Source: Photorhabdus sp. CRCIA-P01
GTDB lineage: Bacteria; Pseudomonadota; Gammaproteobacteria; Enterobacterales; Enterobacteriaceae
NCBI RefSeq assembly: GCF_003545805.1
Contig: NZ_NMQR01000009.1
Location: 1 to 64,000 of the forward strand
Reading direction: 5' to 3'
Length of the DNA: 64,000 bases
The translations under genes and the position numbers were made by a program. Shown here piece after piece: positions 2,099 through 58,798 of this stretch. The notes beneath the pieces were generated by a model. That model saw only the letters and a program-made list of their open reading frames with translations, searched no databases and was not told the DNA's origin. Each line of letters begins with the position of its first letter. The stretch's first letter is position 1.

Positions 2099-2538
2099 AA
2101 TGATTTATATTATATTCTTATCTTATAATATAGATGAAATGAGCGTGGTCATGTAAGTCAATTACAGGCTTTATAGTGATGTTTAAGTTTAATTATTGTT
2201 AACTACGCTAGGTATTAGTATAGTATATTTGATTAAATTGTTTGAATGACCTATCGTTGAATTTTATTTTTAATAATATATTTACCTCTTTCTTTAAAAT
2301 ATGTTGTACAGCAAGGGATAATATTTCCATGTTAATATTGCAAGACAATAAATATGATAGAGAGATAATCATTTCATGTTGAAAAATTAACTGTTAGTAT
2401 CGGAGGGGTAATTTGTGATCTGCTTATAAAAATGTGACGATATAATTGTTTTTCATTATTTTATTGATGTACGTCAATGCTATTGTTGCTCGTATCGTTT
2501 AATAGAAGCATTACTTCAACAAAACTAATGGATATGCC

Positions 2539-4061: not shown

Positions 4062-4187
4062 ATACCCTATGGATTTCAAGATGCATCGCGACGGCAAGGG
4101 AGAGAATCCCCGGGAGCATAGCGAACTATGTGACCGGGGTGAGCGAGTGCAGCCAACAAAGAGGCAACTTGAAAGATAACGGGTATA
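4062..4187 (+). repeat. ERIC element, copy 2
   Basis: A 126-bp ERIC element nearly identical to copy 3 (16571-16697). It starts ATACCC, ends GGGTATA and carries GAATCCCCGGGAGCATAG and TGTGACCGGGGTGAGCGA. It ends 59 nt upstream of the yfhM start, so it is likely transcribed as part of that leader or overlaps its promoter. Confidence 0.93.
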
Positions 4188-4246
4188 CAAGGTTATTCAT
4201 TAAATCCTACCACCAGTTGGTTGGAGTTAAGACAGAGGTTATGGTT

Positions 4247-7200
4247 ATGAATCAAGGTCAATTCTGGCAACGACCAGGAAAAAATAAGCGTTATTTGGCG
4301 GTGATTTTGGCTTCTTTGTTGATGCTTTCTGGTTGTGACCAGTCTGGTAGCACTAATAATGATCAAGCTGCTCATCCACAGTCCACAGAAATTCAAAGCG
4401 AAAAAGCATCTCAGCAATCACATATTCCACCAAAATCAGTAAAACAGAAAGACTCAGTATCACTGGCTGAATTAGTCAAACGTTATGCCGGTAAACCAGT
4501 GAAGATTCTGGATGCTTCTGAAGTTCAGCTTGATGGCGCTAGCGCAATGGTGGTGACATTTTCTGTTCCTTTAGATCCGAATCAGGATTTTGCGCGGAAT
4601 GTCCGTTTGGTGGATGTCAAAGAGGGCAAACTTGATGGCGCGTGGGAGCTGTCAGATAACATGATGGAGCTTCGCCTGCGCCATTTACCGCCCTCCCGTA
4701 AGTTGCAATTGACGGTAGATAAAGGTGTTAAAGGTATCAATGAGCGTCAACTTGAAACGGCTTATGAGGAAACGCTGACAACCACGACGATTTCTCCGTC
4801 GGTCGGTTTTGCCAGCAAAGGCTCTCTGTTACCTAGTAAAGTCGCTGAAGGTTTGCCGGTATTGGCTCTGAATGTTAATCGTGTTGATGTTAATTTTTTC
4901 AGGATAAAAGAGGCGGCATTACCGGCTTTTATTGCACAGTGGCAATATCGCAACAATATGAGTTCTTGGGAATCTGAAGAGGTACTCAAAGGTGCGGAAC
5001 TGGTGTATACCGGCCGTTTCGATTTGAATCCAACACTGAATACCCGCGAAAAATTACTGCTGCCATTAAATAATATTAAAGAGTTACAGAAAGACGGTGT
5101 TTATCTGGCAGTGATGCAACAAGCGGGTAAATACACCGACACTAATCCAGCAACAATGTTTACCTTAAGTGATATTGGTGTTTCTATGCACAGCTATCTG
5201 GATAAGATGGATGTGTTTACCCAATCTTTGGCGCAAGGTAGCAGCCTGAAAGGGGTGGAAATACGGCTGTTGGATGAGAAAGGGCAATTATTGTCAAAGG
5301 CAACAACGGACGATGATGGACACGTTAGCTTGGAGAAAAATGCGAAAGCGAAACTATTGCTTGCTACGCGTGATCACCAAACCAGTATGATTGATTTGGT
5401 ATCACCGGCGCTGGATCTGTCTGAGTTTGATATCTCTGGTCCACAAGGATACAGCAAACAATTTTTTGTTTTCGGGCCCCGTGATCTCTATCGTCCGGGT
5501 GAGACGTTGATTGTCAATGGCTTGTTGCGTGATGGCGATGGCCGCGCAGTGAAGAGTCAGCCAGTTAAAGTGGATGTATTGAAAACCGATGGTCAGGTTG
5601 TTCGTGGTTTTGTCTGGCAACCCGAAAATGGGTTGTATCAGTATCGCTATGCGATCCCCCAGTCAGCGGCTACCGGGCTCTGGTCGTTACGTTTTGATCT
5701 GGGCGATAATAAACCTCGTTATTACAAGTTTAATGTAGAAGATTTTATGCCGGAGCGCATGGCGCTGGAAATTAGTAGTGAGTCGCAACCGGTGATGAAA
5801 GACCACAACGTGGATTTCGCGATTAACGGCCGTTATCTGTATGGGGCGCCTGCTGCATATAATCGCCTGCAAGGGCAATTATTCCTGCGTCCAGCTCGGG
5901 ATGCGGTAGCAAAATTGCCTGGCTATGAATTTGGTGCGGCCACGGAAGACAATCTTAGCCGCACATTGGATGAGTTTGATTTGGTTTTAGATAGTGGTGG
6001 TAAAGCCGCACTTAATGTCAGTGCCGACAACTGGAGTTCGGTCTCTTCGCCGGTAAATGTCATTGTACAGGCAGGTTTGCTTGAATCGGGTGGCCGCCCG
6101 GTAACTCGTCGAGTTGAACAGGCCGTTTGGCCGGCAGAAAAGCTGGTTGGTATTCGTCCGCTGTTTAATCAGAAAGAGATTTATGACTATCGCATAGGTC
6201 GTTACCAAAGCCGTTACAATGTGGATGAAAATTCCCTGGCGCAATTTGCGGTGGTGTATGCCGATGCCGATGGAAAAAAATATGCTGCGAAAGATTTAAC
6301 TGCCCGTTTGGTTTATGAACGCCGTGACTATTATTGGCGCTGGTCGGATGGTGAAGGTTGGCAATCAGGTTATGACCAGAAAGATTTGGTGATGGCGGAT
6401 GAACATATCCAGATTGCTCAAGAGGGTACCGCAAAGGTCAGCTTCCCGGTTGATTGGGGTTCGTATCGTATTGAAGTGGTTAATCCAGAAAATCAATTAG
6501 TGACCAGCGTTAATTTCTGGGCCGGTTACTCATGGCAGGACAATACCGGTGGCACAGGGGCTGTTCGTCCTGATCAGGTGAAGTTATCTCTGGATAAACC
6601 CGCTTATCAGGTAGGTGAGAAGATAAAACTGCATATGGTCGCACCACAGGCCGGTAAAGGTTATCTGTTGGTGGAATCCAGTGAAGGGCCGCTTTGGTGG
6701 CAAAAAATTGATGTGCCGGAACAAGGTCTGGATGTGGAAGTGCCGGTGAATAAAGAGTGGCGTCGTCATGATCTTTATTTGACTGCCGTGGTGGTACGTC
6801 CAGAGGATAAATCTCATCAGGCGACACCGAAACGGGCCATTGGCGTGTTGCATCTGCCATTGGCCGATGAAAATCGTAAACTGGATTTGACGCTATCCGC
6901 ACCGGAAAAAATGCGTCCGAATCAGAATTTGACCGTCAAAGTCAAGGCGACACCACAGCACGGGCGGAAATTACCCAAGCAGGTTAATGTGCTGCTTTCT
7001 GCTGTCGATACGGGGGTGCTGAATGTCACGAATTTTAAAACCCCGGACCCCTATCAGGCTTTCTTTGGTCGTAAGCGTTACAGCGTCGATCAATATGATG
7101 TGTATGGTCAGTTGATTGAAGGCGAAGGCCGTCTGGCGAATCTGCGCTTTGGCGGTGATGGTGATGATAGTGCCCTTGATCGGGGCGGCAGAAAGCCATT

Positions 7201-9277: not shown

Positions 9278-9282
9278 ATTTG

Positions 9283-9312
9283 TCAGCCCTTATGCTCAGG
9301 TGTAAGGGCTGA
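9283..9312 (+). terminator. Hairpin between yfhM and pbpC
   Basis: Perfect 10-bp stem TCAGCCCTTA / TAAGGGCTGA with a 10-nt loop, followed by TTTCTC. It lies in the 56-nt gap between the two genes, so it may act as a partial terminator or attenuator, or stabilise the 3' end of the yfhM mRNA. Confidence 0.6.
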
Positions 9313-9333
9313 TTTCTCATCAGGTATTCATCA

Positions 9334-11655
9334 ATGAAGAAAACGCATCGCCTTATATGGCTGATTGTGCTGTTGTTATTTCTGATCCCGGCGGGTTTAT
9401 GGCTGGCGGATAAAGTCTGGCCTTTGCCACTGCGTGAAGTCAAAATGGCGCGTATTGTCGTGAGTGAGGATGGTACGCCACTTTGGCGTTTTGCCGATGA
9501 TGAAGGTGTCTGGCGTTATCCGGTGACATTGGATCAAGTATCACCCGAATATATTCAAGCTTTGCTGACTTATGAAGATCGTTGGTTCTACAAGCACCCA
9601 GGGATTAACCCGATTTCTCTGCTTCGGGCTGCCTGGCAGGATATGCGGGCAGGTAAAATTTTGTCTGGGGGCAGTACTCTGTCGATGCAGGTAGCCCGGT
9701 TGATTGACCCACATTCACGCACTTTAGGCGGGAAGCTGAAACAGATCTGGCGTACTTTGCAGCTTGAATGGCACTATTCAAAAGATGAAATTCTGGAAAT
9801 GTATCTAAACCGTGCGCCGTTTGGAGGCACGTTACAAGGCGTCGGTGCGGCGAGTTGGGCATATTTGGCTAAACCGCCCTCTGAACTCTCTACGGGAGAA
9901 GCGGCTTTACTGGCTGTTTTGCCGCAAGCTCCTAGTCGTTTAAGGCCAGATCGCTATCCTGAACGGGCACGGGCTGCTCGTGATAAGGTGCTGAAACGGT
10001 TGGCACACTATAAAATCTGGCCGGACCGGATGATTGCTGATATTCGGCAAGAAACGTTGTGGTTGGCTCCTCGGCAGGTGCCACGGCTTGCCCCGCTTCT
10101 TGCCAGACGCATGGCGAAAGGCACTCGTCAGGAGATCATCAAAACAACCCTTGATGTGGGATTACAGCGTCAGCTTGAAGATATGGCGGTGAATTGGAAG
10201 TACCAGTTACCAGAAAAAACGTCGATTGGCGTGTTAATCGTTGATCACACCGACATGGCGGTGAAAGCTTATATCGGCTCGTTGGATATGCGGGATGATA
10301 GCCGTTTTGGTCATGTCGATATGATAAGTTCATGGCGTTCGCCGGGATCAACCTTGAAACCATTTCTGTATGCAATGGCGCTGGATGATGGGTTAATTCA
10401 TGGGGAATCACTGTTACAGGATGTGCCTCGCCGCTTTGATTATTATCGCCCAGGAAATTTTGACAGTGGCTTTCATGGGCCGGTCAGTGCCAGTGAGGCA
10501 TTGGTTCGCTCACTGAATTTACCCGCCGTGCAACTGCTTGAAGTCTATGGCGCTAAGCGGTTTACCGCCAATATGCGTAATGTAGGAACAATATTGCGTT
10601 TTCCTCCCGGCAGTGAACCTAACTTATCATTGATTCTTGGTGGCACGGCAACTCGGATGGATCAATTGGTGGCGGCTTACACGGCGTTTGCCCGTCAAGG
10701 GAAGGTTTCCCCCCTGAGATTCACCCCACGACAGAAATTGCGTGATCGGCAACTTTTTTCGCCCGGCGCTGCATGGATAGTGAGGCGGATTATGGCTGGA
10801 GAAGCTCTGCCACAACCTGATGATGTGTTACCGGCACAGGTGCCGTTGGCCTGGAAAACCGGCACCAGCTATGGCTACCGTGATGCTTGGGCTATCGGCT
10901 TAAATGCGCGTTATACCATCGGTGTTTGGGTTGGTCGGCCGGACGGCACGCCGGTTGTTGGGCAGTTCGGCTACGCTACGGCGATTCCCATCATGAATCA
11001 GATTAATAACCTGTTACTCGCCAATATGCGAAATGGGGCTAAACGAATTCCTGTTGATCCACGTCCAGCAAGTGTGAGTCAGGCAATCATCTGTTGGCCG
11101 GGAGGGCAGAGTTTGCCGAAGGGAGAGAATAATTGCCGTCAGCGTCGTCTGAGCTGGATACTGAATAACACTATTCCGCCTACGTTGCCTGCGGTGGGGC
11201 AAGAGGCCATTTCGGGCATCAATGAACAGGTGTGGTTGGATAAAAACGGTTTGCGTGTGGCGCCTGATTGTCCCGGTGCTCAGTCTAAAAATATCGCTTT
11301 ATGGCCGATTACCCTCGAATCATGGTTACCAGCACAAGAGCGACGGGCACAGCGTCTGCCACCGGTTAACCCTCAATGTCCACCGTTGAAATCAGATGAA
11401 GCGCCCTTGTTGATCGTGGGTATTCATCATGGAGATGTATTGAAACGGCTCCCCGGTTTTGACAGCCTTGATTTACGTATTACCACTCAGGGCGGTAGTC
11501 ATGGGCAACAGTGGTGGTTTCTGAATGGAGAACAGGTGATGACCACGGAAAAGAATCAGGGATTTGTTCAGACATTGACTGAACCGGGTAAATATCAACT
11601 TAGTGTTTTGGATTTAGGTGGACAGGTTGATTCCGTCAATTTTACTTTGAAGTAA
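9334..11655 (+). CDS. pbpC: Penicillin-binding protein 1C (glycosyltransferase/transpeptidase)
   Basis: A 773-residue inner-membrane protein with an N-terminal signal anchor (about residues 6-24). The GT51 glycosyltransferase domain shows EDRWFYKHPG with catalytic Glu near residue 81, and GGSTLSMQVARL. The transpeptidase domain shows the SxxK motif STLK (Ser about 339), the SxN motif SLN (about 393) and KTGT (Lys about 508). A C-terminal PBP1C-specific beta domain follows. It polymerises lipid II and may cross-link peptidoglycan, although E. coli PBP1C has weak transpeptidase activity. It sits 56 nt after yfhM; this conserved pairing supports joint action against envelope damage by proteases and lysozyme-like attack. 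Length is typical. Confidence 0.95.
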   Translation: MKKTHRLIWLIVLLLFLIPAGLWLADKVWPLPLREVKMARIVVSEDGTPLWRFADDEGVWRYPVTLDQVSPEYIQALLTYEDRWFYKHPGINPISLLRAAWQDMRAGKILSGGSTLSMQVARLIDPHSRTLGGKLKQIWRTLQLEWHYSKDEILEMYLNRAPFGGTLQGVGAASWAYLAKPPSELSTGEAALLAVLPQAPSRLRPDRYPERARAARDKVLKRLAHYKIWPDRMIADIRQETLWLAPRQVPRLAPLLARRMAKGTRQEIIKTTLDVGLQRQLEDMAVNWKYQLPEKTSIGVLIVDHTDMAVKAYIGSLDMRDDSRFGHVDMISSWRSPGSTLKPFLYAMALDDGLIHGESLLQDVPRRFDYYRPGNFDSGFHGPVSASEALVRSLNLPAVQLLEVYGAKRFTANMRNVGTILRFPPGSEPNLSLILGGTATRMDQLVAAYTAFARQGKVSPLRFTPRQKLRDRQLFSPGAAWIVRRIMAGEALPQPDDVLPAQVPLAWKTGTSYGYRDAWAIGLNARYTIGVWVGRPDGTPVVGQFGYATAIPIMNQINNLLLANMRNGAKRIPVDPRPASVSQAIICWPGGQSLPKGENNCRQRRLSWILNNTIPPTLPAVGQEAISGINEQVWLDKNGLRVAPDCPGAQSKNIALWPITLESWLPAQERRAQRLPPVNPQCPPLKSDEAPLLIVGIHHGDVLKRLPGFDSLDLRITTQGGSHGQQWWFLNGEQVMTTEKNQGFVQTLTEPGKYQLSVLDLGGQVDSVNFTLK

Positions 11656-11736
11656 ACGATTCAGGTAAAAATGTGATTTGTACGAAAAAATGGTAATTTT
11701 CGCTAATAAAAATTTAATGGAATGTTATGTTTTCTG

Positions 11737-11765
11737 TAGGCAACCGCTATTCGTACCCCTATAAT
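11737..11765 (+). promoter_or_regulatory. Putative sigma-70 promoter of ndk
   Basis: A consensus TATAAT at 11760-11765 is preceded at 17-bp spacing by TAGGCA (4 of 6 matches to the -35 consensus). It lies about 110 nt upstream of the ndk start. Confidence 0.45.
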
Positions 11766-11873
11766 CAACGCCGTTTTTATCTCCGCTAAGGTTGCGGAAT
11801 GAGTATTAGCCGATTAACTTATCGGGAAAAATTAAAATTATCAGTTGCTGACAGAAGAACCAAGAGGTTATCC

Positions 11874-12299
11874 ATGACGGTTGAACGTACTTTTTCTATT
11901 ATTAAGCCTAACGCTGTGAAGAAAAATGCCATCGGGGCTATTTATGCTCGTTTTGAAAGCGCCGGGTTTAAAATTATTGCCGCCAAAATGCTTCACCTGA
12001 CCCGTGAACAGGCTGAGGGCTTCTATGCGGAGCACAAAGGCCGCCCTTTCTTTGATGGTCTGGTGGAATTTATGACTTCTGGTCCCATCGTGGTTCAGGT
12101 ATTGGAAGGCGAGAATGCAGTACAGCGTCACCGTGACCTAATGGGGGCAACTAATCCTGATAATGCATTAGCAGGTACTCTGCGTGCCGATTACGCAGAT
12201 AGCTTCACTGAAAATGCGGTTCACGGCTCTGATGCGGTTGAATCTGCAAACCGTGAAATTGCCTATTTCTTCACGGAAGATGAAATTTGCCCACGTTAA
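11874..12299 (+). CDS. ndk: Nucleoside diphosphate kinase
   Basis: A 141-residue cytosolic enzyme that transfers the gamma-phosphate of ATP to NDPs through a phospho-histidine and so balances NTP and dNTP pools. The catalytic His117 lies in [12 protein letters not shown], the family signature, and the N-terminus [15 protein letters not shown] is typical. The open frame extends 75 nt upstream, but ATG 11874 is chosen because AGAGGT precedes it and the length then matches the usual 141-143 residues. The gene order pbpC-ndk-rlmN is conserved in enterobacteria. It appears monocistronic: a promoter-like sequence lies upstream and a strong terminator follows. Confidence 0.97.
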
Positions 12300-12349
12300 T
12301 TGATTTGCCGTTACCCGTAGCATCATTGCATTAAAGTTTGTACAATGCG

Positions 12350-12390
12350 GCGCCCCGTTGTTAATTCAACGGGGCGCTTATTATTTGTTA
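12350..12390 (+). terminator. Rho-independent terminator of ndk
   Basis: Perfect 11-bp GC-rich stem GCGCCCCGTTG / CAACGGGGCGC with a 6-nt loop, followed by TTATTATTTGTT. Confidence 0.9.
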
Positions 12391-12481
12391 CTATACTAAA
12401 CTGATAGTGACCTGAATTGAAACTTCGCGTTGAGTTCATTAACGCAGAGCCGAAAGTGTTACAACGAGGCGATATAAAAAG

Positions 12482-13660
12482 ATGTCCCAACCAAATACCG
12501 CGGCACAATTTGCTGCTTCTGTCGTGTCCGAAACTCCAGAAAAGAAAGGCGGTAAAATTAACCTGCTTGATCTGAATCGCAAGCAAATGCGCCAGTTTTT
12601 CATTGATATGGGAGAAAAACCATTCCGTGCTGATCAGGTGATGAAGTGGATGTATCACTATTGCTATGACGATTTTGAGCAGATGACGGATATCAATAAA
12701 ACCCTGCGGGCAAAATTGCAGCAAGTGGCGGAGATCCGCGCACCTGAAGTAGCAGAAGAGCAACGTTCGGCCGATGGTACGATTAAATGGGCGATCACTG
12801 TTGGCGATCAGCAGGTTGAAACGGTTTATATCCCGGAAGATGATCGCGCAACTTTGTGTGTCTCTTCTCAGGTAGGCTGTGCACTGGAATGTAAATTCTG
12901 TTCTACCGCTCAACAAGGGTTTAACCGTAATTTGCGGGTTTCTGAAATTATTGGTCAGGTTTGGCGTGCCGCGAAAATTATTGGCTCACTGAAATCCAGT
13001 GGTCGCCGCCCGATTACCAATGTGGTGATGATGGGGATGGGAGAACCGCTACTTAATCTGAATAATGTGGTGCCGGCCATGGAAATTATGATGGATGATT
13101 TTGGCTTTGGTCTGTCGAAACGCCGCGTGACATTGTCCACATCTGGTGTGGTGCCAGCACTGGATAAGCTTGGCGATATGATTGATGTTGCTTTGGCAAT
13201 ATCCCTGCATGCACCGACAGATAATGTGCGGGATGATATTGTTCCTATCAATCGTAAGTATAATATCGAGCAGTTCCTTGCAGGTGTGCGCCGCTATTTG
13301 ACTAAATCTAATGCCAATCAGGGGCGTGTAACCGTGGAATATGTCATGCTGGATCATATTAATGACAGCGTGGAACAGGCACATCAATTAGCTGAATGCT
13401 TGAAAGACACACCGAGTAAGATCAATTTGATCCCGTGGAACCCGTTTCCGGGGGCGCCATATGGTCGCAGTTCCAATAGCCGGATTGATCGCTTTGCGAA
13501 AGTGTTGATGGGATATGGTTTCACCACTATTGTCCGCAAGACTCGCGGTGATGATATTGATGCCGCATGTGGTCAGCTTGCCGGTGATGTGATTGATCGT
13601 ACTAAACGTACATTGAAAAAACGTCAGGCCGGTGAACCTATTCAGATAAGAACAGTCTGA
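12482..13660 (+). CDS. rlmN: Dual-specificity 23S rRNA/tRNA A2503/A37 methyltransferase
   Basis: A 392-residue radical-SAM enzyme that adds a methyl group to C2 of adenine 2503 in 23S rRNA and A37 of some tRNAs, affecting translational fidelity. The 4Fe-4S motif CALECKFC holds Cys133, Cys137 and Cys140. The glycine-rich segment GMGEPLLN binds SAM, and a cysteine near the C-terminus (DAACGQLAG) corresponds to the residue that forms the covalent methyl intermediate. The start at 12482 follows ACGAGG at a slightly long spacing and gives the expected length. The following genes pilF-rodZ-ispG-hisS match the enterobacterial order. Confidence 0.97.
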
Positions 13661-13739
13661 ATGGGAATGTTGGTATGTCCTGTCATGCAGTAAGTGAAAT
13701 GATTGTTACAATTGCATATCTTTGGTCGGTGGGGATGGA

Positions 13740-14165
13740 ATGATAAGGAAATCGTTATCGGGAATGATGGTTGTTGCCGTGGTGGTTGCTATGTTGTTGG
13801 CAGGATGTTCCAATCAACCAACAAACGGCAATCAACAGCGAAAAGTCGCGGCGGAAACCCGGATTCAACTGGGAATGGCCTATCTGGCTAAAGGTAATTT
13901 ACCTGCCGCCAGATATCACTTTGATAAGGTTTTACTGGCAAAGCCAGACCATTATCAGGCTCAATTAGGTATGGCGTTGTATGAGCAATATTCTGGTCGG
14001 CCGGAAGCTGCCCGTCAACGTTACAAAATGGCGATGCAGTATGCGCCAGGAAATGATACGGTATTGTATCATTACAGCGTTTTTCTCTGTGAGCAGGGGC
14101 AGTATGAAGAAGTCAAAACTCTGTTTACTGGGAGCCATGCTGACAGGCGTGTTTGTTATCAGTGA
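13740..14165 (+). pseudogene. pilF: Truncated type IV pilus biogenesis lipoprotein PilF/PilW (TPR protein)
   Basis: The frame from ATG 13740 (preceded by GGGGATGG) encodes a lipoprotein signal ending LLAGC and two to three tetratricopeptide-like repeats (RIQLGMAYLAKGNLPAARYH and LGMALYEQYSGRPEAA). It ends at 141 residues after the block YHYSVFLCEQGQYEEVKTLF, where full-length PilF/PilW proteins continue to about 250 residues. Only about 115 nt remain before rodZ, so the missing 100 residues have been deleted rather than shifted out of frame. PilF normally helps assemble the outer-membrane secretin of type IV pili. Position between rlmN and rodZ is the usual one. It may still give a short TPR lipoprotein, but I read it as decaying. 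Confidence 0.72.
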
Positions 14166-14285
14166 TTTGCCGCTAGTAAAATAGCAAATCTATTTCGCCG
14201 CGCAGGCCATTGTGTAATTTAACGATTATAGCAAGGCGCCAGCGCGAAGTTTTTCACAACCTGAAAGTACCGCGTCTTCTTGCTA

Positions 14286-15299
14286 ATGAATACTGAAACG
14301 ACTCCAGAACAAGCTCATTTAACCGCAGGTCAGCTCCTGCGTCAGGCTCGTGAACAGCACGGGCTAACCCAGCAGACTGTAGCTGATCGCTTGTGTTTAA
14401 AACTTTCTACTATCCGTGATATTGAAGAGGACAATATTCCAGCCACCATGGTACCGACTTTCCTGCGTGGTTATGTTCGCTCTTATGCTAAGTTGGTACA
14501 AATTCCAGAAGCAGAGATTCTGGCAATTTTGGATAAGCATACCCCGGCAAAAACAGCGAAAGTTTCACCGATGCAGAGTTTTTCATTGGGTAAAAAACGT
14601 AAAAAACGCGAAAGTTGGTTGATGTGGATTACGTGGTTGATTATTTTAGCCGTAATTAGTTTGACGGGAGCATGGTGGTGGCAAAACCACATAGCTCAAC
14701 AGAAGGAATTGATTTCGATGGCTGATCATTCCGCGGCTCAGATTGCTCAGAAGAAAGCCAGTTCAGAGAATTTGTCCACTGAAAGTCATAATCAGGTGGC
14801 GCAGTTACCGACCCGCGAGCAGGCCGCAAGTGAGCCATCATCATCTGCCGCTGTAACCGAAAATGCAGTGGCAGCGAATAATACTGGTGATCATCATAAG
14901 GAAGTGGCTCAATCTGCGGTATCAACTCAAAATCAAGTGGTGAAAACACCGGAAACTCAGCCACAGACTCAGACTGCTCCGTTGCCAACCAATAAAGGGA
15001 CAGCTCAAGTACCGAGTGTGTCTGAAAATAATTCAGCGGCAGTCGCTGACAGTAATAAGCTGATGATGAATTTTAAAGCATCCTGTTGGTTACAAATTGT
15101 TGATGCAAAAGGGAAAAAATTATTTAGTGGAACTAAACATAAGGGTGATCATCTGAGTCTCTCTGGCTCATTACCTTATGAATTAACTATCGGTGCTCCG
15201 GCTGTTGTGGATGTACAGTTCCGGGGGCAAGTTGTTGATTTAAGCCGCTTTATTAAAGAGAGTCGTATTGCGCGTCTTAAAGTTCCAGCAGCACAATAA
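14286..15299 (+). CDS. rodZ: Cytoskeletal protein RodZ
   Basis: A 337-residue bitopic membrane protein that links MreB filaments to the elongasome and sets rod shape. An N-terminal Cro/C1-type helix-turn-helix (LLRQAREQHGLTQQTVADRL, then LKLSTIRDIEEDN) binds MreB. A basic stretch GKKRKKRES precedes one transmembrane segment (about residues 112-130). A periplasmic Gln/Ser/Thr-rich linker follows, then the C-terminal DUF4115 beta domain beginning near MNFKASCWLQIVDAKGK. A TTG at 14280 could also initiate, but ATG 14286 gives the usual N-terminus. It is followed by ispG, the conserved order. Confidence 0.95.
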   Translation: MNTETTPEQAHLTAGQLLRQAREQHGLTQQTVADRLCLKLSTIRDIEEDNIPATMVPTFLRGYVRSYAKLVQIPEAEILAILDKHTPAKTAKVSPMQSFSLGKKRKKRESWLMWITWLIILAVISLTGAWWWQNHIAQQKELISMADHSAAQIAQKKASSENLSTESHNQVAQLPTREQAASEPSSSAAVTENAVAANNTGDHHKEVAQSAVSTQNQVVKTPETQPQTQTAPLPTNKGTAQVPSVSENNSAAVADSNKLMMNFKASCWLQIVDAKGKKLFSGTKHKGDHLSLSGSLPYELTIGAPAVVDVQFRGQVVDLSRFIKESRIARLKVPAAQ

Positions 15300-50566: not shown

Positions 50567-51799
50567 ATGAAAAATTTTTCTCTTAATAGTTATACATCCA
50601 TACCGGCATGTATATGGGGTCTATTTCTTGGGACTTTTGTAACAAGATCAACATCAATGATGGTATGGCCTTTTATTTCCATCATACTATATACAAAATT
50701 CCATTTTACTGCATCGATGATTGGATTAGTTCTCTCTTTATCCATTGCGATTTCATCAATATTAAGTTTTTATGCTGGTTACTTCTCTGATAAAGTCGGC
50801 CGGGCTAAGATAATTGTCATTGGATGTCTTATATCTTCATTGGCATATTTAATATTATGGTTATCTGAGCATCAGTCTGGTTTTATTATTGGCACTTTAT
50901 TAGCGAATATTTCCTGGGCGCTTGTGAATAATCCAATAAAAGCAGTTATCGGTGATATTATCGAGGAAAAACAGGTAAGAGAAAATGCCATGTACTTAAG
51001 GTATTTATTTCTTAATGCGGGTGCGGTAGTCGGGCCTTATTTAGGAATAAAATTAAGTCTGGATATTAATTCTATCTCTTTTCTGATTGTTTCGATATCC
51101 TATGTCATTTTTATGATCCCTGTTTATTTATTTAGTAAGAAAATAAAAATAAATTCAATAAATAATGATGACTTTAAAGGAACGATAAAGATTTTATTGA
51201 ATGATCGGGTGTTTTTAATGTTGGTCATAAATAATATTCTCATGATGTTTATTTTTGGCCATTTCGATTCAACTTTGCCACAATTAATTACTTCATTAGG
51301 GTTTAATGGGTATGCTGAGTTTATTGCTTCGCTTATTATGTTACATGCGATAACCATTGTCGTTATGCAGTTACCGTTTTCCATGTTAACGCAAAACATG
51401 GAGTTAGAAACGAAAATAAATATAGGGGCTGTATTACTCATTTTATCTGAATTAATGTTCTTTATCTCATTCAAGTATTATGATGTTTATTTATTATGGT
51501 ATATAGCCGCGTTTACCATGAGTATCAGTCAAACTATTTTGTTTCCATGTGTGAATGTTTTTATTGATCGTTTGGCACCAAATGATTTACGTGGTGCGTA
51601 TTTTGGTGCAGCGTCACTTTATAGTATTGGTTTTTCTATATCGCCATTGGTTGGTGGTGCTGTTATCCAATTCTTTGATGGTGGAGTGTTATTTCAATTA
51701 TTAGCGATATTAAGTGTATTAATGTTGGTAATTTTCTATCGGATGTTTAAACTAAGGGATAAACATGAAATTAATATTAGAAGAAGTCTCAAATCTTAG
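50567..51799 (+). CDS. Major facilitator superfamily transporter (likely exporter)
   Basis: A 410-residue membrane protein with about 12 hydrophobic segments and the MFS loop 2-3 signature in the form GYFSDKVGRAKIIVIG (DxxGR). It resembles drug/proton antiporters of the MdtH or multidrug type by layout. Being the first gene of an accessory biosynthetic-type cluster, it probably exports the product or gives self-resistance; substrate unknown. The DNA is strikingly AT-rich compared with pgm upstream. It overlaps the next gene by 35 nt. Confidence 0.88.
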   Translation: MKNFSLNSYTSIPACIWGLFLGTFVTRSTSMMVWPFISIILYTKFHFTASMIGLVLSLSIAISSILSFYAGYFSDKVGRAKIIVIGCLISSLAYLILWLSEHQSGFIIGTLLANISWALVNNPIKAVIGDIIEEKQVRENAMYLRYLFLNAGAVVGPYLGIKLSLDINSISFLIVSISYVIFMIPVYLFSKKIKINSINNDDFKGTIKILLNDRVFLMLVINNILMMFIFGHFDSTLPQLITSLGFNGYAEFIASLIMLHAITIVVMQLPFSMLTQNMELETKINIGAVLLILSELMFFISFKYYDVYLLWYIAAFTMSISQTILFPCVNVFIDRLAPNDLRGAYFGAASLYSIGFSISPLVGGAVIQFFDGGVLFQLLAILSVLMLVIFYRMFKLRDKHEINIRRSLKS

Positions 51800-52160
51800 A
51801 CCAACCGAATTATATTGTCCTGTTCGTGTTGAGCAGTTAATAGAGAAAGTTAAACTTGAAGGTTTTTGGACTCAACCAATCTGGATTGATGAAGCAACGA
51901 ATATCGTTATTGATGGTCATCATAGACTTGAATTAGCCAAAACACTAAAATTAAGTTGTATTCCTTGTCTGGCATTTGATTATGAGAAGGAGTTGTTGGT
52001 TTATTCCCGCAATGAGGATAAAACAATTAGTCATATTGATGTTATTAAGGCGGGTTTGGATGGGCAACCTCTTGGTTATAAACAGACTCGTCATGAGTTT
52101 GCCGGAAATGTTATTGAAATACAAATTTCGTTAAAAATGTTAGGGTTTGTCAATGAATAA
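51765..52160 (+). CDS. ParB/sulfiredoxin-fold protein, SerK/SbnI-like (candidate free-amino-acid kinase)
   Basis: A 131-residue protein with a single ParB-N-like domain. LRPTE at residues 11-15 and IDGHHRLELAKTL at residues 49-61 match the nucleotide-binding signatures of ParB-fold phosphotransferases (DGHHR motif). SerK of archaea and SbnI of Staphylococcus use this fold to phosphorylate free L-serine, with a Glu in the position of E15. No helix-turn-helix or partition-type C-terminal domain is present, so a chromosome-partition role is unlikely. It overlaps the MFS gene by 35 nt and the flavoprotein gene by 8 nt, so it is translationally linked to both. Role proposed: making an O-phospho-amino acid precursor. 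The substrate is inferred. Confidence 0.72.
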   Translation: MKLILEEVSNLRPTELYCPVRVEQLIEKVKLEGFWTQPIWIDEATNIVIDGHHRLELAKTLKLSCIPCLAFDYEKELLVYSRNEDKTISHIDVIKAGLDGQPLGYKQTRHEFAGNVIEIQISLKMLGFVNE

Positions 52161-53349
52161 GCAATTTTATGATGTGGTAATGTGTGGTGCAGGGCCTGCG
52201 AATATTTCATTAATCCCAGATTTATTAAAGGATGAAGCCATAAAAAATTGTCTGATTTTAGAAAAAACAGAGATGGTTGGTTCTGGCGCATTAAAGAAAT
52301 ATAAAATTACCGCGAACTCTTTAGGTAGTGTATTTTTAGAGAAATTTGACGGTTGTGATGATGAACTTAGTCAATATATAAGATCAGCATCAGAGTGGGA
52401 ACATTTTAGTGCCAATAAAGATAAGCCAGTTGAATTGAGGTTTGTCGGCCAATATTTGGAGAGAATTGCACGCTTTATTCAGGAAAACAAATATGGTGAT
52501 CGGTTTGATGTTTTGACTGATGCGGAAGTAAAAAAAATTAAGCAGAATGAAGAGGGTGACTATGATATAACTTATCATAAAAATAATGAAGATTATATTG
52601 TATCAGCGCGAAAAGTACTGTTTAATATAGGCGGAAGTCCAAACAAATCCAGGTTATTACATAATAGCAAGAATATTACATCAGGTGATTTCATTAAAGG
52701 TTTCTATGATGATGTCATTAATAAAGGCAGTGTAAAAAGTATATCCATATTGGGTTCGTCACACAGTTCTGTTTCTTGTTTGATTAGGCTTGTTGAACAA
52801 TTAGAATTTGCAGGAAAAATAAATGTCTTCGTGAATAAAGATTTCAAGTTGTTTTTCGATTCACCTTCAAGTGCGGAATCTTATGGCTATGATTTCACAC
52901 AGGAAGATATTTGTCCTTTAAGTAACCGAGTTAATAGATATTCAGGTTTAAGATATGATTCTTTTGCTTTTGCACAAGAACTTAAAGAAAGAAAATATAA
53001 AAACATTTCCATCTTGAATATTTCAGAAATTTCCGATGATGAAGTTATTAAGCTCATTAATCGTGATGATTTACTTATTCATTGTACTGGTTATCATTCT
53101 AAACTTGTTGAAATAGTTAATGAAAATAATGTTCCTATTGAATTTAAAAGTGATAGATATGGTTTGCTAACTAATGAAAAATTAAGTCCTATATCGACGT
53201 CAGATGAAGTGCTTAATAATTTTCACGCATTCGGTCTGGGATCTGGTGTAAAGACGGGTGGTGAAAATGGTGGAGAGGCAAGTTTTCATGGAAGAATTGA
53301 CGGGGTTTGGGTATATCAGCATGTTATATATGACATCGTATTTAATTGA
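52153..53349 (+). CDS. FAD-dependent N-hydroxylating monooxygenase-like protein
   Basis: A 398-residue flavoprotein. The N-terminal FAD motif CGAGPANISLIPDLL resembles the GxGPxN signature of lysine/ornithine N-monooxygenases; the NADPH motif is ILGSSHSSVSCLI at about residues 200-212; and the C-terminal IHCTGYHSK corresponds to the ATGY motif of that group. Enzymes of this class oxidise primary amines to hydroxylamines using NADPH and O2. FrbG of FR-900098 biosynthesis is an enzyme of this kind. Start ATG 52153 overlaps the previous stop by 8 nt. Its place next to a formyltransferase suggests the pair builds an N-formyl-N-hydroxy group. Substrate unproven. Confidence 0.8.
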   Translation: MNKQFYDVVMCGAGPANISLIPDLLKDEAIKNCLILEKTEMVGSGALKKYKITANSLGSVFLEKFDGCDDELSQYIRSASEWEHFSANKDKPVELRFVGQYLERIARFIQENKYGDRFDVLTDAEVKKIKQNEEGDYDITYHKNNEDYIVSARKVLFNIGGSPNKSRLLHNSKNITSGDFIKGFYDDVINKGSVKSISILGSSHSSVSCLIRLVEQLEFAGKINVFVNKDFKLFFDSPSSAESYGYDFTQEDICPLSNRVNRYSGLRYDSFAFAQELKERKYKNISILNISEISDDEVIKLINRDDLLIHCTGYHSKLVEIVNENNVPIEFKSDRYGLLTNEKLSPISTSDEVLNNFHAFGLGSGVKTGGENGGEASFHGRIDGVWVYQHVIYDIVFN

Positions 53350-53464
53350 TATTTAATTCAATATCAATTTTATATTATTAACGGACTACATTTTAGGTTA
53401 ATTCCTATTTAACAATAAAAATAACCTTTTAACAGCCATTTAAAATAATCAATTAAGACTGACT

Positions 53465-55321
53465 ATGAATATAAAAACCGTAATACTTCTCTGTGCCGGA
53501 AGAGGCAGTAGATTATCAACTAGAACATCAAATAAACCAAAACCTTTGGTAGAAACAAATCAGATATCATTTATCGATAATGCACTGAGGAATATCGAAT
53601 CTGTCGGTATTGAAAAAGTGATTATTGTGGTAGGTTATAAGAGCGATGTTTTAATGTCTCATGTTAAACAACACGCATATAACTTGCATATTGAATTTGT
53701 TAATAGCGATAAGTGGGAATCGACGAATAATATCTATTCTTTATATCTCGCTAGAAATTGGATTAAGCAGGATACCCTGATTCTTGAAGGCGATATCTTC
53801 TTTACTAAGAAATGCTTAGAAAGTGTAATGTCAAAAGCGGGAGATCTTAATATACTTGTTTCTCCTCTTAGCCCAAATATGGAAGGAACTTATGCAAAAG
53901 TCGATAATGATAAAATCGTTGCGCTAAATTCCACGAAAGATAACAACTATCAGGTTGAAGACGGTCAATATAAGACGGTAAATATTTATAATATTTGCAC
54001 CGCTAATTTTGCTGAATATGTTACTAAAGCGTTAGAAAGTTACGTTAATAGTGGAGCGACTGGGTTATATTATGAAGATATATTTAAACAGTCTTTGCTG
54101 AATAATGTGGCTGAATTTAAAGCCAGTATTGTTGATAATTCTCAATGGTATGAAGTAGATAATACTTATGATCTTGCTATTTGTGATTTCATTTCAAGTA
54201 ATAATAAATTAGAACTTGTGCAAAACAGGCACGGTGGTTACTGGCGTTATCCCATTATTGACTTTGGTTTAATTTATAATTTCAACTTTCCACCTAAGAA
54301 ATTGAAAGATGAAATAAAGAATAATTTTGATGAAATATTGTTAAATTATCCTGGCGGGAATCGTTTAGTCGAACATGCTTTGTCTGAATTTATTGGGATA
54401 GAAAGAACACAATTATGTATTTCAAATGGTGCCGCTGAGATAATTAAACGGCTTCCTGATGTTTATACAGGCAAAGTATTAGTCACTGTACCTTCATTTA
54501 ATGAATATGCTAATTGCTTTGGAAAAGCAAGAACGATATATAGCTATACCAAAGAACATCGGCATTTTGAGATAGATATTAATGAAGTATTAACGTTGGT
54601 AAAGGAAGAACAACCCAGTGTGGTTGTTATTGAATCACCTAATAATCCGACAGGTAAATTGACTCCTATTGATAGTCTGTTATATTTGGCTGGCGAATTG
54701 CTGGCATTAAATATCGACTTAATTATTGATGAATCTTTCTTAGATTTCTCTAAAATGCGTGATGACACAATGTTAAAGTATTTAGATAACTATAAGAATT
54801 TATCTGTTATTCGAAGCATGAGTAAAACCTTCGGGATTGGTGGTATTCGTATAGGGTATATTGCCACGGCAAATCAGGAATTACTTGGTAAAATAAGAGC
54901 TGTGTTACCAATTTGGAATATTAATGGTTTTGCTGAAGAATTTTTATTTAGACTACCTCAATATCGAGAGAGTTATAAATTAAGCTGTGAACAAGTGATT
55001 AGTGATACGTTAAAATTACAGCAAGAATTAAACTCAATAGAGGGTATTACCGCATTTGAGACAGACTCTAATTTTGTTTACTGTAAATTGCACATTTCCG
55101 ATGCAAAGACTATCTCACGGTTACTTTTAGATATTCATGGGCTGTATGTAAAAGAGTGTTCTGGTAAAGGAAATTCAGACTCTGATCTCTATTTACGTAT
55201 TTCTTGCCGAACGCAAAGCGATAATGAAATTTTAATAAATGCATTACGTACGATTATGCAGTGGCAAATAAACATTAATGATATGAAAGCGATCAAAGAA
55301 GTTAAAGAGGTTTGCGAATGA
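53465..55321 (+). CDS. Bifunctional nucleotidyltransferase / class I-II aminotransferase-fold PLP enzyme
   Basis: A 618-residue fusion. Residues 1-240 are a LicC-type nucleotidyltransferase (LLCAGRGSRLSTRTSNKPKPL, metal Asp in ILEGDIFF). Residues about 250-615 are a fold-type I PLP enzyme like HisC or the threonine-phosphate decarboxylase CobD (ESPNNPTGKL, LIIDESFLDF, PLP Lys454 in SMSKTFGIGG). The same domain pair in the same order is found in FrbH of FR-900098 biosynthesis, which decarboxylates an amino acid bearing a phosphonate and adds CMP. PntC-type fusions are an alternative, but their aminotransferase is of a different class. In this cluster the likely substrate is an O-phospho-amino acid. 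AT-rich. Confidence 0.85.
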   Translation: MNIKTVILLCAGRGSRLSTRTSNKPKPLVETNQISFIDNALRNIESVGIEKVIIVVGYKSDVLMSHVKQHAYNLHIEFVNSDKWESTNNIYSLYLARNWIKQDTLILEGDIFFTKKCLESVMSKAGDLNILVSPLSPNMEGTYAKVDNDKIVALNSTKDNNYQVEDGQYKTVNIYNICTANFAEYVTKALESYVNSGATGLYYEDIFKQSLLNNVAEFKASIVDNSQWYEVDNTYDLAICDFISSNNKLELVQNRHGGYWRYPIIDFGLIYNFNFPPKKLKDEIKNNFDEILLNYPGGNRLVEHALSEFIGIERTQLCISNGAAEIIKRLPDVYTGKVLVTVPSFNEYANCFGKARTIYSYTKEHRHFEIDINEVLTLVKEEQPSVVVIESPNNPTGKLTPIDSLLYLAGELLALNIDLIIDESFLDFSKMRDDTMLKYLDNYKNLSVIRSMSKTFGIGGIRIGYIATANQELLGKIRAVLPIWNINGFAEEFLFRLPQYRESYKLSCEQVISDTLKLQQELNSIEGITAFETDSNFVYCKLHISDAKTISRLLLDIHGLYVKECSGKGNSDSDLYLRISCRTQSDNEILINALRTIMQWQININDMKAIKEVKEVCE

Positions 55322-55992
55322 ATAATCCCAAAACAGTGGTAATTTGTGGTAAAGGAGAGTTGGCAATATTCATTTGTCAATATTTCTTAAATCATAAAGG
55401 CTATAAAATATCGCACGTGGTGGCAGATAAATTCGAACCTGTAAGTACTGATCAGACGTTAATCGATTTCTGTTATCAAAATAATATTTCTGTTATTGAA
55501 GATAATAAGGTTGAAAATCTACCAGGCTATGAAAGTGGTGATTTCACTTGTAATTTATGCTTTGTTGTATTTCATAAGCGGATATTGCCTTTAAAATTCA
55601 TTAACTCGTGTAAGAAAATATTAAATATCCATTTGTCTTATTTACCTAAATATCGAGGCGTAAGACCGGTTAATTGGGCTTTGAAAAATGGAGATCAGTC
55701 TCATGGTGTGACGATCCATGAAATCAACGAAGGTATTGATGCTGGTCCGATTGTGAATCAGATCTCATTTTCTATTTATCCTGAATTTGAAGAGGTCATT
55801 GATACTTATACACGGGCTATTAGCTATGCCAGACAATTATTCCTTGACACGATGCCAATATTGGAAAAAATAACACCAAGACCTCAGATTGATTCAGAGG
55901 CAACAATTTATTATGAAAAGGATAATCATAGTCTGGAAGAACGGATGACATTTACCAAGCAGGCATCGCTCGAATTACTTAATAAAGCTTAA
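55318..55992 (+). CDS. Formyltransferase (GART/Fmt N-terminal domain family)
   Basis: A 224-residue enzyme consisting of a formyltransferase catalytic domain only. The catalytic triad Asn103-His105-Asp141 is visible in LNIHLSYLPKYRG and INEGIDAGPI. It lacks the tRNA-binding C-terminal domain of methionyl-tRNA formyltransferase, so a small-molecule acceptor is expected, with 10-formyl-tetrahydrofolate as donor. The start ATG 55318 overlaps the stop of the fusion gene (ATGA), indicating coupling. Related free-standing enzymes formylate sugar amines or hydroxylamines such as hydroxyornithine. Its neighbours suggest a hydroxylamine acceptor. Confidence 0.85.
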   Translation: MNNPKTVVICGKGELAIFICQYFLNHKGYKISHVVADKFEPVSTDQTLIDFCYQNNISVIEDNKVENLPGYESGDFTCNLCFVVFHKRILPLKFINSCKKILNIHLSYLPKYRGVRPVNWALKNGDQSHGVTIHEINEGIDAGPIVNQISFSIYPEFEEVIDTYTRAISYARQLFLDTMPILEKITPRPQIDSEATIYYEKDNHSLEERMTFTKQASLELLNKA

Positions 55993-56023
55993 ATGATAAC
56001 TGCCCTTAACACTGGAACACTCT

Positions 56024-56827
56024 ATGTATAATCTCATTGCCACAGATCTCGATGGGACGCTTTTACTTCAAGGAGATACAATTGGTAAGTTTACCCGCAA
56101 GGTGCTTACTGATTTATCAAGTACCGGAAAGCAGATCGTATTTGCAACGGGAAGGCATCATGCTGATGTGAATTCGATTATTGGTGATTTTGATATTCCT
56201 GTGCATTTGATTACTTCGAATGGCGCCAGATTAACCAGTGCTTGTAAAAGTCTGGACATTAGACAACATTTGCCAAGTCACGTAGTAAAAAGAGTGATTG
56301 AAGAAACGCGGGCGGATAATGATTTAGTGATCAATATGTATTGTGGTTCTCAATGGTTAACCAGTGAAGCAAATTATAATTTTAGCGATTTTAGTCAGAA
56401 TGATAACTTTAATCCAATATTCAAGCATATTGATGAAATGCCTTGTGATGCGGTTGAAAAAGTTTTTTTCATTCATAAGAGTAGAGATCATGATGCATTG
56501 GTTAAATTAGAACATCATTTAATTGAGCTATTTTCTGATCATGTCAGTATCGCTTTTTCATTCCCTTGGTGTCTGGAGGTAATGGGTAGTGGTGTTTCGA
56601 AGGGGCAAGCTTTAATTCAACTCGCTGGGTTTCTTGGTATCCCAATTGATAAAACGATTGCGTTTGGTGATGGTATGAATGATGTGGAAATGCTTTCAAC
56701 CGTAGCTAAAGGGGTCATAATGGGAACGGCGCATAATAGGGTGAAACAAGCTCTTCCGGGTGCCGATATTATTGGTTCTTGCTGTGAAGAATCTGTCGCC
56801 CATTATTTATCTGAAAATATGTGTTAG
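56024..56827 (+). CDS. Cof-type HAD-IIB phosphatase
   Basis: A 267-residue haloacid dehalogenase phosphatase: motif 1 ATDLDGTLL (nucleophile Asp), motif 2 ITSNGA, motif 3 Lys in GVSKGQAL and motif 4 FGDGMNDVEML, with a C2B cap in between. Such enzymes remove phosphate from sugar phosphates or small phosphorylated metabolites. It follows the formyltransferase by 31 nt and ends the cluster before a terminator, so it may act on a pathway intermediate or serve self-protection. It could also be an unrelated housekeeping paralogue. Confidence 0.88.
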   Translation: MYNLIATDLDGTLLLQGDTIGKFTRKVLTDLSSTGKQIVFATGRHHADVNSIIGDFDIPVHLITSNGARLTSACKSLDIRQHLPSHVVKRVIEETRADNDLVINMYCGSQWLTSEANYNFSDFSQNDNFNPIFKHIDEMPCDAVEKVFFIHKSRDHDALVKLEHHLIELFSDHVSIAFSFPWCLEVMGSGVSKGQALIQLAGFLGIPIDKTIAFGDGMNDVEMLSTVAKGVIMGTAHNRVKQALPGADIIGSCCEESVAHYLSENMC

Positions 56828-57262: not shown

Positions 57263-58798
57263 ATGTCTAACGATAAAACAGGAAAACCACTAGAACAGGA
57301 AGACAGTGAAAGAGACGCAGAGATACGTGACCGAAATTATTTTCGAAAACTGTCCCTATTCGATGATACTGTTATAGCTGGTGCTGAAATGATCGGTACT
57401 GGTTATGATGTTTTTGGTAAGTATTGCAATGTGGGAAGTTGTATGAATTCGCTTTTCGATGAGCGAAAAATCAATGCAAGTGAAGATAATTTCAAGAAAG
57501 TCACTATTCTCGGCAAAACACTAAAAGTCCCCTATTATGTCGATTGTTATAGTGTCGGGGATTTAAAATATACCAATGCATCAGGCGAATCTATTGAGTC
57601 ATATCAAAGCAGTATTTCCAGTAAAAGCCGCATTAAAGGCAACTACTTATTCTTTAGCGCATCGCTGAGAGTCGATTTTGATACAGATAGTCTGACCGCT
57701 TTTGAGAATGCGTTTTCCCGCATTCAGTATACTTATGATCTCTATATACTTAAAAGTTCAGCAGAAGCGTTAAAAGAGTTTCTGAAAGAGAGTGTTAAAA
57801 CTGCCCTTGATAAGGCGGATACTGAGGAGGATATGAATGACCTCTTTGATACCTGGGGCTCTTACTTTCTGAGTGGCGTGGTCATGGGCGGCTGTGCGCA
57901 ATATTCATCATCTACGGACAAATATACTTCGAATCTAACAAACTCTCTTGACGTGGTTGCCGTAGCCTCATTTGCGGGATTTATCGGTCTCTCTGTTCGT
58001 ACAGGAAATTCATTTCAGGAGGATATAAAGAAATTTCGTTCAGCATCCAATATAAAAACCCACTCCATTGGCGGTGACTTGTCTCGATTTGATCCTTTTG
58101 GTGGCGCGATAAGCGCAGAACAACCTTCCGCAGAAGAAATAGCCGCAGCGAAAAAAGCATTTGAAGACTGGAAAGCGAGTGTTCCCAATGCCCCTGAATT
58201 AGTTAACTTTGCAGATTCCAATCCCTTGACGGGGATTTGGGAATTGTGTTCAGACAGAACACAAAAGGCCAAGCTTAAAAAGCATTTTGAAACTGTCTGG
58301 GCTCCGGCGGAGTCTGCTAAACGACGTATACATGCGGATTATATTGATGAGATTATTATTGGGGTCAATAACACTAACACTCCTCCTGAAGGGTATATTG
58401 GATTAAAATCCATTAAAGGCAACGAATATCTGAATAATAAGAATAAAATTTGTATTTTCGTGCATAAAGCAAAATATGATCCCATTATCGATAATAAGGA
58501 TTGCATCACTGAGTTAAAGTTCATCACTGTAAAAGATAAAAATCCGGAGGGAGCTTGGGTTAGGATCCCTCAAGATATTTGTAGCGTATCCGGTCAATAT
58601 TTATATTTGTGTTACTTACCAGCAAAATATTCCTCTGAGAAGGCGATAAAGGACATTCAATTGCTATGCAGCAGTTGTGGTTCCAGCATGATACTTCCTT
58701 ATGGATATAAAGATGTCTTAGATGAAAGAGGTGAGAGAGCTAACGCTACTGATGATGCAGATGTTCATTACCTTATTTATAGCGCTGGATGGAACTGA
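57263..58798 (+). CDS. MAC/perforin-domain protein (Plu-MACPF type)
   Basis: A 511-residue protein. The N-terminal half is a MACPF/CDC pore-forming fold; its signature appears as DTWGSYFLSGVVMGG around Trp198, corresponding to the (Y/W)GTHF motif of perforin and complement proteins. The C-terminal region from about residue 355 is a beta-rich domain with repeated YIGLKS / YLYLCYLP strands, consistent with the beta-prism of Plu-MACPF from P. luminescens, a protein of the same length whose crystal structure revealed the shared fold with perforin. No signal peptide is evident. The start follows GAGG by 6 nt. A role in insect-host interaction is assumed; the known homologue binds cells but was not shown to be lytic. 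Confidence 0.93.
   Translation: MSNDKTGKPLEQEDSERDAEIRDRNYFRKLSLFDDTVIAGAEMIGTGYDVFGKYCNVGSCMNSLFDERKINASEDNFKKVTILGKTLKVPYYVDCYSVGDLKYTNASGESIESYQSSISSKSRIKGNYLFFSASLRVDFDTDSLTAFENAFSRIQYTYDLYILKSSAEALKEFLKESVKTALDKADTEEDMNDLFDTWGSYFLSGVVMGGCAQYSSSTDKYTSNLTNSLDVVAVASFAGFIGLSVRTGNSFQEDIKKFRSASNIKTHSIGGDLSRFDPFGGAISAEQPSAEEIAAAKKAFEDWKASVPNAPELVNFADSNPLTGIWELCSDRTQKAKLKKHFETVWAPAESAKRRIHADYIDEIIIGVNNTNTPPEGYIGLKSIKGNEYLNNKNKICIFVHKAKYDPIIDNKDCITELKFITVKDKNPEGAWVRIPQDICSVSGQYLYLCYLPAKYSSEKAIKDIQLLCSSCGSSMILPYGYKDVLDERGERANATDDADVHYLIYSAGWN

Follow-up and report, generated by a model that had tools for sequence, protein, structure and literature searches.

A six-gene cluster of Photorhabdus that probably adapts FR-900098 logic to a fosfocytocin-type product

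Fosfoxacin, which was obtained from Pseudomonas fluorescens, is the alpha-oxa analogue of fosmidomycin and inhibits the enzyme DXR, with a Ki of 19 nM on the Synechocystis protein; inhibition of DXR requires a three-atom spacer (PMC9782300 and PMC9919496). Fosfoxacin derivatives have been synthesised with an ethyl spacer (PMC10707747), and a 1990 report of fosfocytocin and fosfadecin is cited in PMC9782300 and PMC9919496. No description of biosynthetic genes for compounds of this type was found in the open full-text literature, outside which most subscription papers and preprints lie. Fosfocytocin, described as a nucleotide antibiotic, is taken here to be the cytidylyl form of fosfoxacin. A cluster of six collinear open reading frames (ORFs) that would direct the synthesis of such a compound lies on the + strand at positions 50567-56827 of a 64,000-nucleotide stretch of DNA from Photorhabdus sp. 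CRCIA-P01 (the window).

The closest described pathway is that of FR-900098, encoded by the frb genes, and Streptomyces rubellomurinus ATCC 31215 is the producer of that compound. The locus in this strain contains, as expected for frb, genes for HMGL, phosphoenolpyruvate (PEP) mutase (motif EDKVFPKRNS), Iso_dh, Antibiotic_NAT, a flavoprotein, a fusion protein, NUDIX, TauD and DXR; the NUDIX gene is taken to be FrbI, which removes cytidine monophosphate (CMP). The Photorhabdus cluster resembles frb in that an FrbG-type N-hydroxylase gene stands beside an FrbH-type fusion gene and is accompanied by an N-acyltransferase gene. However, its six genes include no PEP mutase, HMGL, Iso_dh, NUDIX, TauD or DXR, a SerK-like gene being present instead, and it has a formyltransferase where frb has an AAC(3)-type acetyltransferase. 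The cluster is thus very probably, as judged from sequence, a variant of FR-900098 logic that serves a fosfocytocin/fosfoxacin-type pathway. Its predicted product matches these compounds, and the cluster also occurs in Pseudomonas, the genus of fosfoxacin. (A Pseudomonas phosphonate cluster, in which one protein is 60% identical to an FR-900098 protein, is described in PMC13074693.)

The original prediction had proposed a fosfoxacin/fosfocytocin-like product for these six genes. All six ORFs are present, their proposed domain labels agree with Pfam/NCBIfam profile searches, and the idea is strengthened by homology to FrbG and FrbH, by a recurring gene order and by a DXR gene neighbouring the related genes of Priestia. 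The reading favoured here, with a probability of roughly 0.73, is that the cluster makes CMP-linked N-formyl-N-hydroxyethanolamine phosphate, i.e. fosfocytocin, in which the DXR inhibitor fosfoxacin is masked. It is drawn from gene content, homology, synteny, phylogeny, the distribution of PEP mutase and the Priestia DXR gene; activities, substrates and product are predicted. O-phosphoserine, which would serve as the oxygen isostere of the FrbH substrate 2-amino-4-phosphonobutyrate, would be supplied by the SerK-like, ParB-fold protein (51765..52160), by normal serine biosynthesis, or by both. The fusion protein (53465..55321) would couple it to CMP and decarboxylate it, the net product being CDP (cytidine diphosphate)-ethanolamine. 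The FrbG-like flavoprotein (from 52153, the probable ATG start, or from TTG at 52147, to 53349) would N-hydroxylate the CMP conjugate, and the formyltransferase (from 55318, the probable ATG start, or from TTG at 55312, to 55992) would cap the hydroxylamine to give CDP-linked N-formyl-N-hydroxyethanolamine. The CMP handle would be retained, since no counterpart of the frb NUDIX gene was seen; the conjugate itself would leave the cell through the MFS exporter (50567..51799; MFS_1, 5.9e-41), and phosphodiester cleavage outside or within a target cell would free fosfoxacin. Finally, the Cof-type HAD phosphatase (56024..56827) would destroy free fosfoxacin that leaks, protecting the producer; it could do so because fosfoxacin in its free form is a phosphate monoester, which fosmidomycin is not.

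The assignments of the flavoprotein and the fusion carry much of this reading. The flavoprotein is homologous along its length to the S. rubellomurinus protein in the FrbG position (E 9e-39), the two being joined in one alignment, and it gives a weak match to Lys_Orn_oxgnase (1e-4; 22 bits, cut-off 21.3). When its predicted model (pLDDT 81.8) was submitted to Foldseek, ranks 1-34 were all N-hydroxylating monooxygenases of ornithine, putrescine, cadaverine and related substrates (query TM 0.54-0.62, root-mean-square deviation about 7-9 Å). Its sequence found eight matches in the PDB, seven of them repeat proteins with sub-threshold stretches, and a profile search placed KtzI at the top; the FrbG-position sequence had no PDB match at 1e-3. 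(According to a review, a crystal structure of FrbG exists; FrbG is described as requiring the CMP moiety.) The fusion is 33% identical over 587 columns to the S. rubellomurinus protein in the FrbH position (E 2e-104) and joins an NTP_transferase domain to an Aminotran_1_2 domain (class I/II, dependent on pyridoxal phosphate, PLP), as a LicC-like cytidylyltransferase at the N-terminus and a CobD-like decarboxylase at the C-terminus. The N-terminal part matches the solved structures 1jyk (the phosphocholine cytidylyltransferase LicC, 1.8e-12) and 6pd1 (a nucleotidyltransferase/aminotransferase), the latter taken to be PntC. Within the alignment both the PKPL-type lysine and the PLP lysine are conserved. 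The aligned lysine of the FrbH-position ORF is residue 37, counting from a TTG start, and is taken as the same residue as the published K38, whose mutation in FrbH (K38A) abolishes activity (PMC6697681). In the formyltransferase (Formyl_trans_N, 5.7e-23), the N-H-D triad that had been described as intact is indeed so, N105, H107 and D143 being invariant in 8/8 rows.

The genes recur as an ordered cluster in three genera, which bears out the co-conservation on which the original prediction depended, and because the same order is repeated in other genera it is not due to chance. A scan of 84,980 species genomes for the flavoprotein, which rested on two peptide patterns and can therefore miss distant clusters, returned 16 loci: eight in Photorhabdus, one each in Photobacterium galatheae (60% identity), Pseudomonas piscis (48%) and Pseudomonas sp. 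PB106 (49%), and five in actinobacteria, S. rubellomurinus ATCC 31215 among them. Within Photorhabdus the flavoprotein is present in 9 of 12 genomes; synteny was read in eight of these nine, including the window, and P. akhurstii is additional. In addition to the window, eight named Photorhabdus loci have the order MFS-SerK-flavoprotein-fusion-formyl-HAD and share the arrangement seqA-pgm-cluster-kdpDE. (In P. thracensis about 1.1 kb of additional DNA, at 12649-13741 of its locus, interrupts the fusion gene.) The order in P. galatheae, the only one of 296 Vibrionaceae genomes with the flavoprotein at E 1e-20, is MFS-SerK-flavoprotein-fusion-formyl, and the five-gene set MFS-flavoprotein-fusion-formyl-HAD is found in 4/398 Pseudomonas genomes, including P. 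piscis and PB106. The MFS protein is 55-64% identical in the Photobacterium cluster and the four Pseudomonas clusters. Among 198 sampled genomes of the window's family, a close flavoprotein is seen in two, both Photorhabdus; three more have matches of only 26% with E > 1e-4. The 10 flanking ORFs scanned at the Photobacterium locus and three Pseudomonas loci belong to ordinary families (MlaA, thiamine pyrophosphate (TPP) enzymes, MerR, TetR, GNAT, Orn/DAP decarboxylase), with one unmatched. Another flavoprotein family of Pseudomonas, at 30-39% identity and present in 34/398 genomes, was rejected as belonging to such clusters on account of its different setting: at the four loci read, in four of these 34 genomes, there is no fusion, formyltransferase or MFS match in the surrounding 19.5 kb or so. 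In IMG/VR, none of the 13 pattern matches to the flavoprotein is a relative.

The flavoprotein-fusion pair is accompanied by a formyltransferase gene in Photorhabdus, Photobacterium and Pseudomonas (the formyl-type clusters) and by an AAC(3)-type match in Priestia, S. rubellomurinus, Saccharothrix, Streptomyces MspMP-M5, S. katrae, Erwinia and Rahnella; such a match was not found in the S. hydrogenans locus (L063), a contig of 6.8 kb. The pattern is consistent with a shared predicted core of N-hydroxylation and then N-acylation. Phylogenetic trees of the two proteins agree. The formyl-type clade is supported at 96/99 in the flavoprotein tree and 100/100 in the fusion tree, and the next to join it are the proteins of Priestia megaterium plasmid pBM700 (100/99 and 100/98, respectively), while the actinobacterial and Erwinia/Rahnella proteins fall outside the combined group in both. 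(Both trees are midpoint-rooted for drawing and have some long branches, with an outgroup long-branch warning for the fusion tree, and only the inner grouping is used. The flavoprotein tree comprises, with other rows, the window, three of the eight other named Photorhabdus loci and three of the 34 rows of the Pseudomonas side family, and omits L046 and L047, at 21-22% identity, and the partial L062 and L063; the fusion tree has the window and two of the eight named Photorhabdus loci, and omits partial rows from Agrobacterium and L108.)

The Priestia cluster (P. megaterium QM B1551, 6581-14685 of its locus) encodes on one strand, in order, two ATP-grasp ligases, the flavoprotein, an AAC(3)-type acyltransferase, the fusion, a CDP-alcohol phosphatidyltransferase and DXR. 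It shares with the window a flavoprotein (39%), a fusion (43%), an N-acyltransferase and the lack of a PEP mutase on the plasmid, the plasmid being the only replicon searched; it differs in its AAC(3)-type acyltransferase and in having the ligases, the phosphatidyltransferase and DXR. S. rubellomurinus likewise has one of the two DXR genes of its genome inside the frb-like locus. Consequently, the nearest relative of the formyl-type clusters and the frb locus both carry DXR. A spare copy of the target enzyme within a cluster is a classical mark of self-resistance, and the DXR gene on pBM700 is read as such a sign. The Priestia cluster probably makes its own acetyl-type DXR inhibitor, perhaps linked to a peptide. 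The phylogenies also answer the concern that the flavoprotein and fusion might group with enzymes of unrelated pathways: they are homologous to FrbG and FrbH, and their neighbour in the trees is this DXR-bearing cluster.

The alternative that survives best, although it is unlikely, is that the genes make a modified CDP-ethanolamine for decoration of the surface or of lipids, so that N-formyl-N-hydroxyethanolamine phosphate would be passed to a glycan or lipid and no antibiotic would result. A related fusion gene in Gloeothece adjoins LicD and a methyltransferase, and a CDP-alcohol phosphatidyltransferase is present in the Erwinia, Rahnella and Priestia clusters. However, in the fusion tree the Gloeothece protein falls outside the group that is associated with flavoproteins. 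Moreover, no phosphotransferase, LicD, glycosyltransferase, CDP-alcohol phosphatidyltransferase or NUDIX is seen among the six genes or the 10 flanking ORFs scanned at the Photobacterium locus and three Pseudomonas loci, out of five loci from outside Photorhabdus; an MFS gene is present in every formyl-type locus read, and the Priestia relative has DXR.

Within the fosfocytocin reading, O-phosphoserine is the favoured starting compound because it occurs in normal metabolism, is the oxygen isostere of what FrbH uses, would be what the SerK-like protein makes, and is the substrate attributed to 6oux. This last entry, a threonine-phosphate-decarboxylase-like enzyme, is the best solved match to the PLP part of the fusion (4.4e-38); it is taken to be SMUL_1544 of Sulfurospirillum, with serine-phosphate as substrate in norpseudo-B12 synthesis. 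Unlike the fusion, SMUL_1544 is a stand-alone enzyme of corrinoid synthesis without a cytidylyltransferase part; it has been proposed to make ethanolamine phosphate (PMC4585668). A further match of the PLP part is to CobD, the threonine-phosphate decarboxylase (NCBIfam, 3.2e-49, short of the cut-off), which could be taken to mean that the pathway starts from O-phosphohomoserine or O-phosphothreonine and yields a longer or methylated chain. Such a start is judged quite improbable: the ethyl spacer and the three-atom requirement are satisfied by phosphoserine, the kinase-like gene matches serine kinases, and the best solved match remains 6oux. The original prediction had let a kinase supply either phosphoserine or phosphohomoserine; the former fits the spacer and is kept, but the latter is set aside, because the spacer of fosfoxacin has two carbons and phosphohomoserine would give one atom too many.

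The part played by the kinase-like gene also needs revision. Its product matches NCBIfam SerK at 4.4e-7 over profile positions 17-92, with only residues 4-75 aligned, and SbnI at 0.0043; both scores are far below the cut-offs (for SerK, 29.3 bits against 380). Nevertheless, E15 and the motif D50-G-H-H-R54 are invariant in 10/10 rows, nine of which are from Photorhabdus, and E15 aligns to SerK E30, presumably the catalytic residue, the DGHHR motif being likewise matched. The gene is present in the Photobacterium cluster. Because it was not found in the loci of the four Pseudomonas clusters, it is accessory.

A further possibility is that fosmidomycin itself, a true phosphonate, is the product and that another locus supplies the phosphonate from which it is built. 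The substrates of FrbG and FrbH are phosphonates, and contig C173 of this genome carries a cluster with a PEP mutase gene. Thus the earlier statement that no PEP mutase is in view holds for the window's contig, where the family has no match, but not for the genome. The C173 cluster (1751-13566), a separate one of phosphonate type, encodes, besides PEP mutase, a TPP decarboxylase, three aminotransferases, a PhyH dioxygenase, GNAT/FemAB, ATP-grasp, MFS and SDR proteins; neither HMGL nor Iso_dh, both of which are in the frb locus, is among the 10 ORFs scanned there. At E 1e-40 or better its PEP mutase is matched in 1/12 Photorhabdus genomes, compared with 9/12 for the flavoprotein; eight of the nine flavoprotein-bearing genomes have no close PEP mutase at this threshold, which a very divergent one could escape, and this upholds the view that PEP mutase is dispensable. 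The EDK-NS motif is absent from every PEP-mutase-family match examined in other hosts, these being all 3 in Photobacterium, 4 of the 5 in P. piscis and 5 of the 6 in PB106; the two left over are in frames of 458 and 466 amino acids. Since a close PEP mutase is missing in most hosts of the cluster, a phosphonate is most likely not the starting compound of the pathway, and manufacture of fosmidomycin itself is considered very improbable. Equally hard to credit is a siderophore-like hydroxamate chelator made with borrowed FrbG/FrbH-type genes: the flavoprotein has the fold of siderophore N-hydroxylases and formyl hydroxamates occur in siderophores, but a CDP head with only one hydroxamate chelates weakly, the six genes encode no nonribosomal peptide synthetase, NIS synthetase or siderophore receptor, and relatives carry DXR.

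Several observations nonetheless weigh against fosfocytocin as the product. The flavoprotein is only 26% identical to the protein in the FrbG position, and this genome contains, on C173, a PEP mutase with the motif EDKIFPKMNS. The SerK-like protein, at 131 amino acids, is about half the length of SerK (about 240 amino acids, in two parts), its AlphaFold2 model is poor (pLDDT 46.8), and the search for it in Pseudomonas, confined to the four cluster loci, gave no match. A CDP-alcohol phosphatidyltransferase gene lies between the fusion and DXR genes of Priestia. Flavoprotein-fusion pairs also occur in clusters with other gene sets, in Erwinia, Rahnella and Streptomyces, and the pair by itself is therefore not enough to define the product. 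Fosfoxacin inhibits E. coli DXR rather modestly, about 8-fold less than fosmidomycin does (PMC9919496). In the genome collections searched, none was recognised as that of the 1990 producers of fosfocytocin and fosfadecin. Finally, this genome, Photobacterium, P. piscis and PB106 have one DXR each and no second copy; formyl-type hosts would therefore have to protect themselves in another way. As a separate observation, the Erwinia and Rahnella clusters and three from Streptomyces combine the flavoprotein and fusion with other genes, HAD-IIIC, MaoC or SDR being found in the plasmid clusters, and apparently represent a further product class.

The HAD phosphatase could provide that protection. It is 50% identical to the HAD protein of the P. 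piscis cluster, compared with 39% to the nearest paralogue of its own host, and it was not found in the Photobacterium locus. The original prediction had counted it simply as part of the cluster; it is in fact also kept where the biosynthetic genes are absent. In 3/3 Photorhabdus genomes without the flavoprotein, the gene is retained between pgm and kdpE at 82-90% identity, preceded by a short remnant that matches the end of the formyltransferase gene, which suggests that these three have lost the pathway. A role as an immunity phosphatase against free fosfoxacin is the most speculative step of the scheme, and its retention also fits some other useful function. With this in mind, a wider generalisation can be offered only tentatively: there may be a PEP-mutase-free family of pathways that convert phosphoserine to nucleotide-masked hydroxamate phosphates mimicking fosmidomycin, formyl-type in Photorhabdus, Photobacterium and Pseudomonas, and acetyl-type with DXR in Priestia, in which formyl-type producers would be protected not by a resistant target but by CDP masking and a dedicated HAD phosphatase that outlives the lost pathway.

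If the fosfocytocin reading is correct, three genera or more carry a gene set for fosfoxacin-type drugs, and nature has a counterpart of FR-900098 biosynthesis that yields a phosphate and dispenses with C-P bond chemistry. Searches of genomes for phosphonate antibiotics, when keyed to PEP mutase, would overlook such clusters. The reading also points to an antibacterial from Photorhabdus, an associate of insects, with competing bacteria as possible targets, since insects are generally held to lack the methylerythritol phosphate (MEP) pathway.

In the arrangement of the six genes, counted from their listed starts, overlaps of 35, 14 and 10 bases join MFS to SerK-like, SerK-like to flavoprotein and fusion to formyltransferase, and gaps of 115 and 31 bases precede the fusion and HAD genes. 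Their GC content is 0.316-0.384, compared with 0.424 for the whole window. A scan found 34 promoter-like sites (39.6 expected) and four terminator-like sites (3.9 expected), neither above chance. Between the HAD gene and kdpE lies a MACPF/perforin-like gene (window 57263-58798); it was not found within the other eight named loci of the genus, but lies at the same place in one Photorhabdus genome that lacks the cluster.

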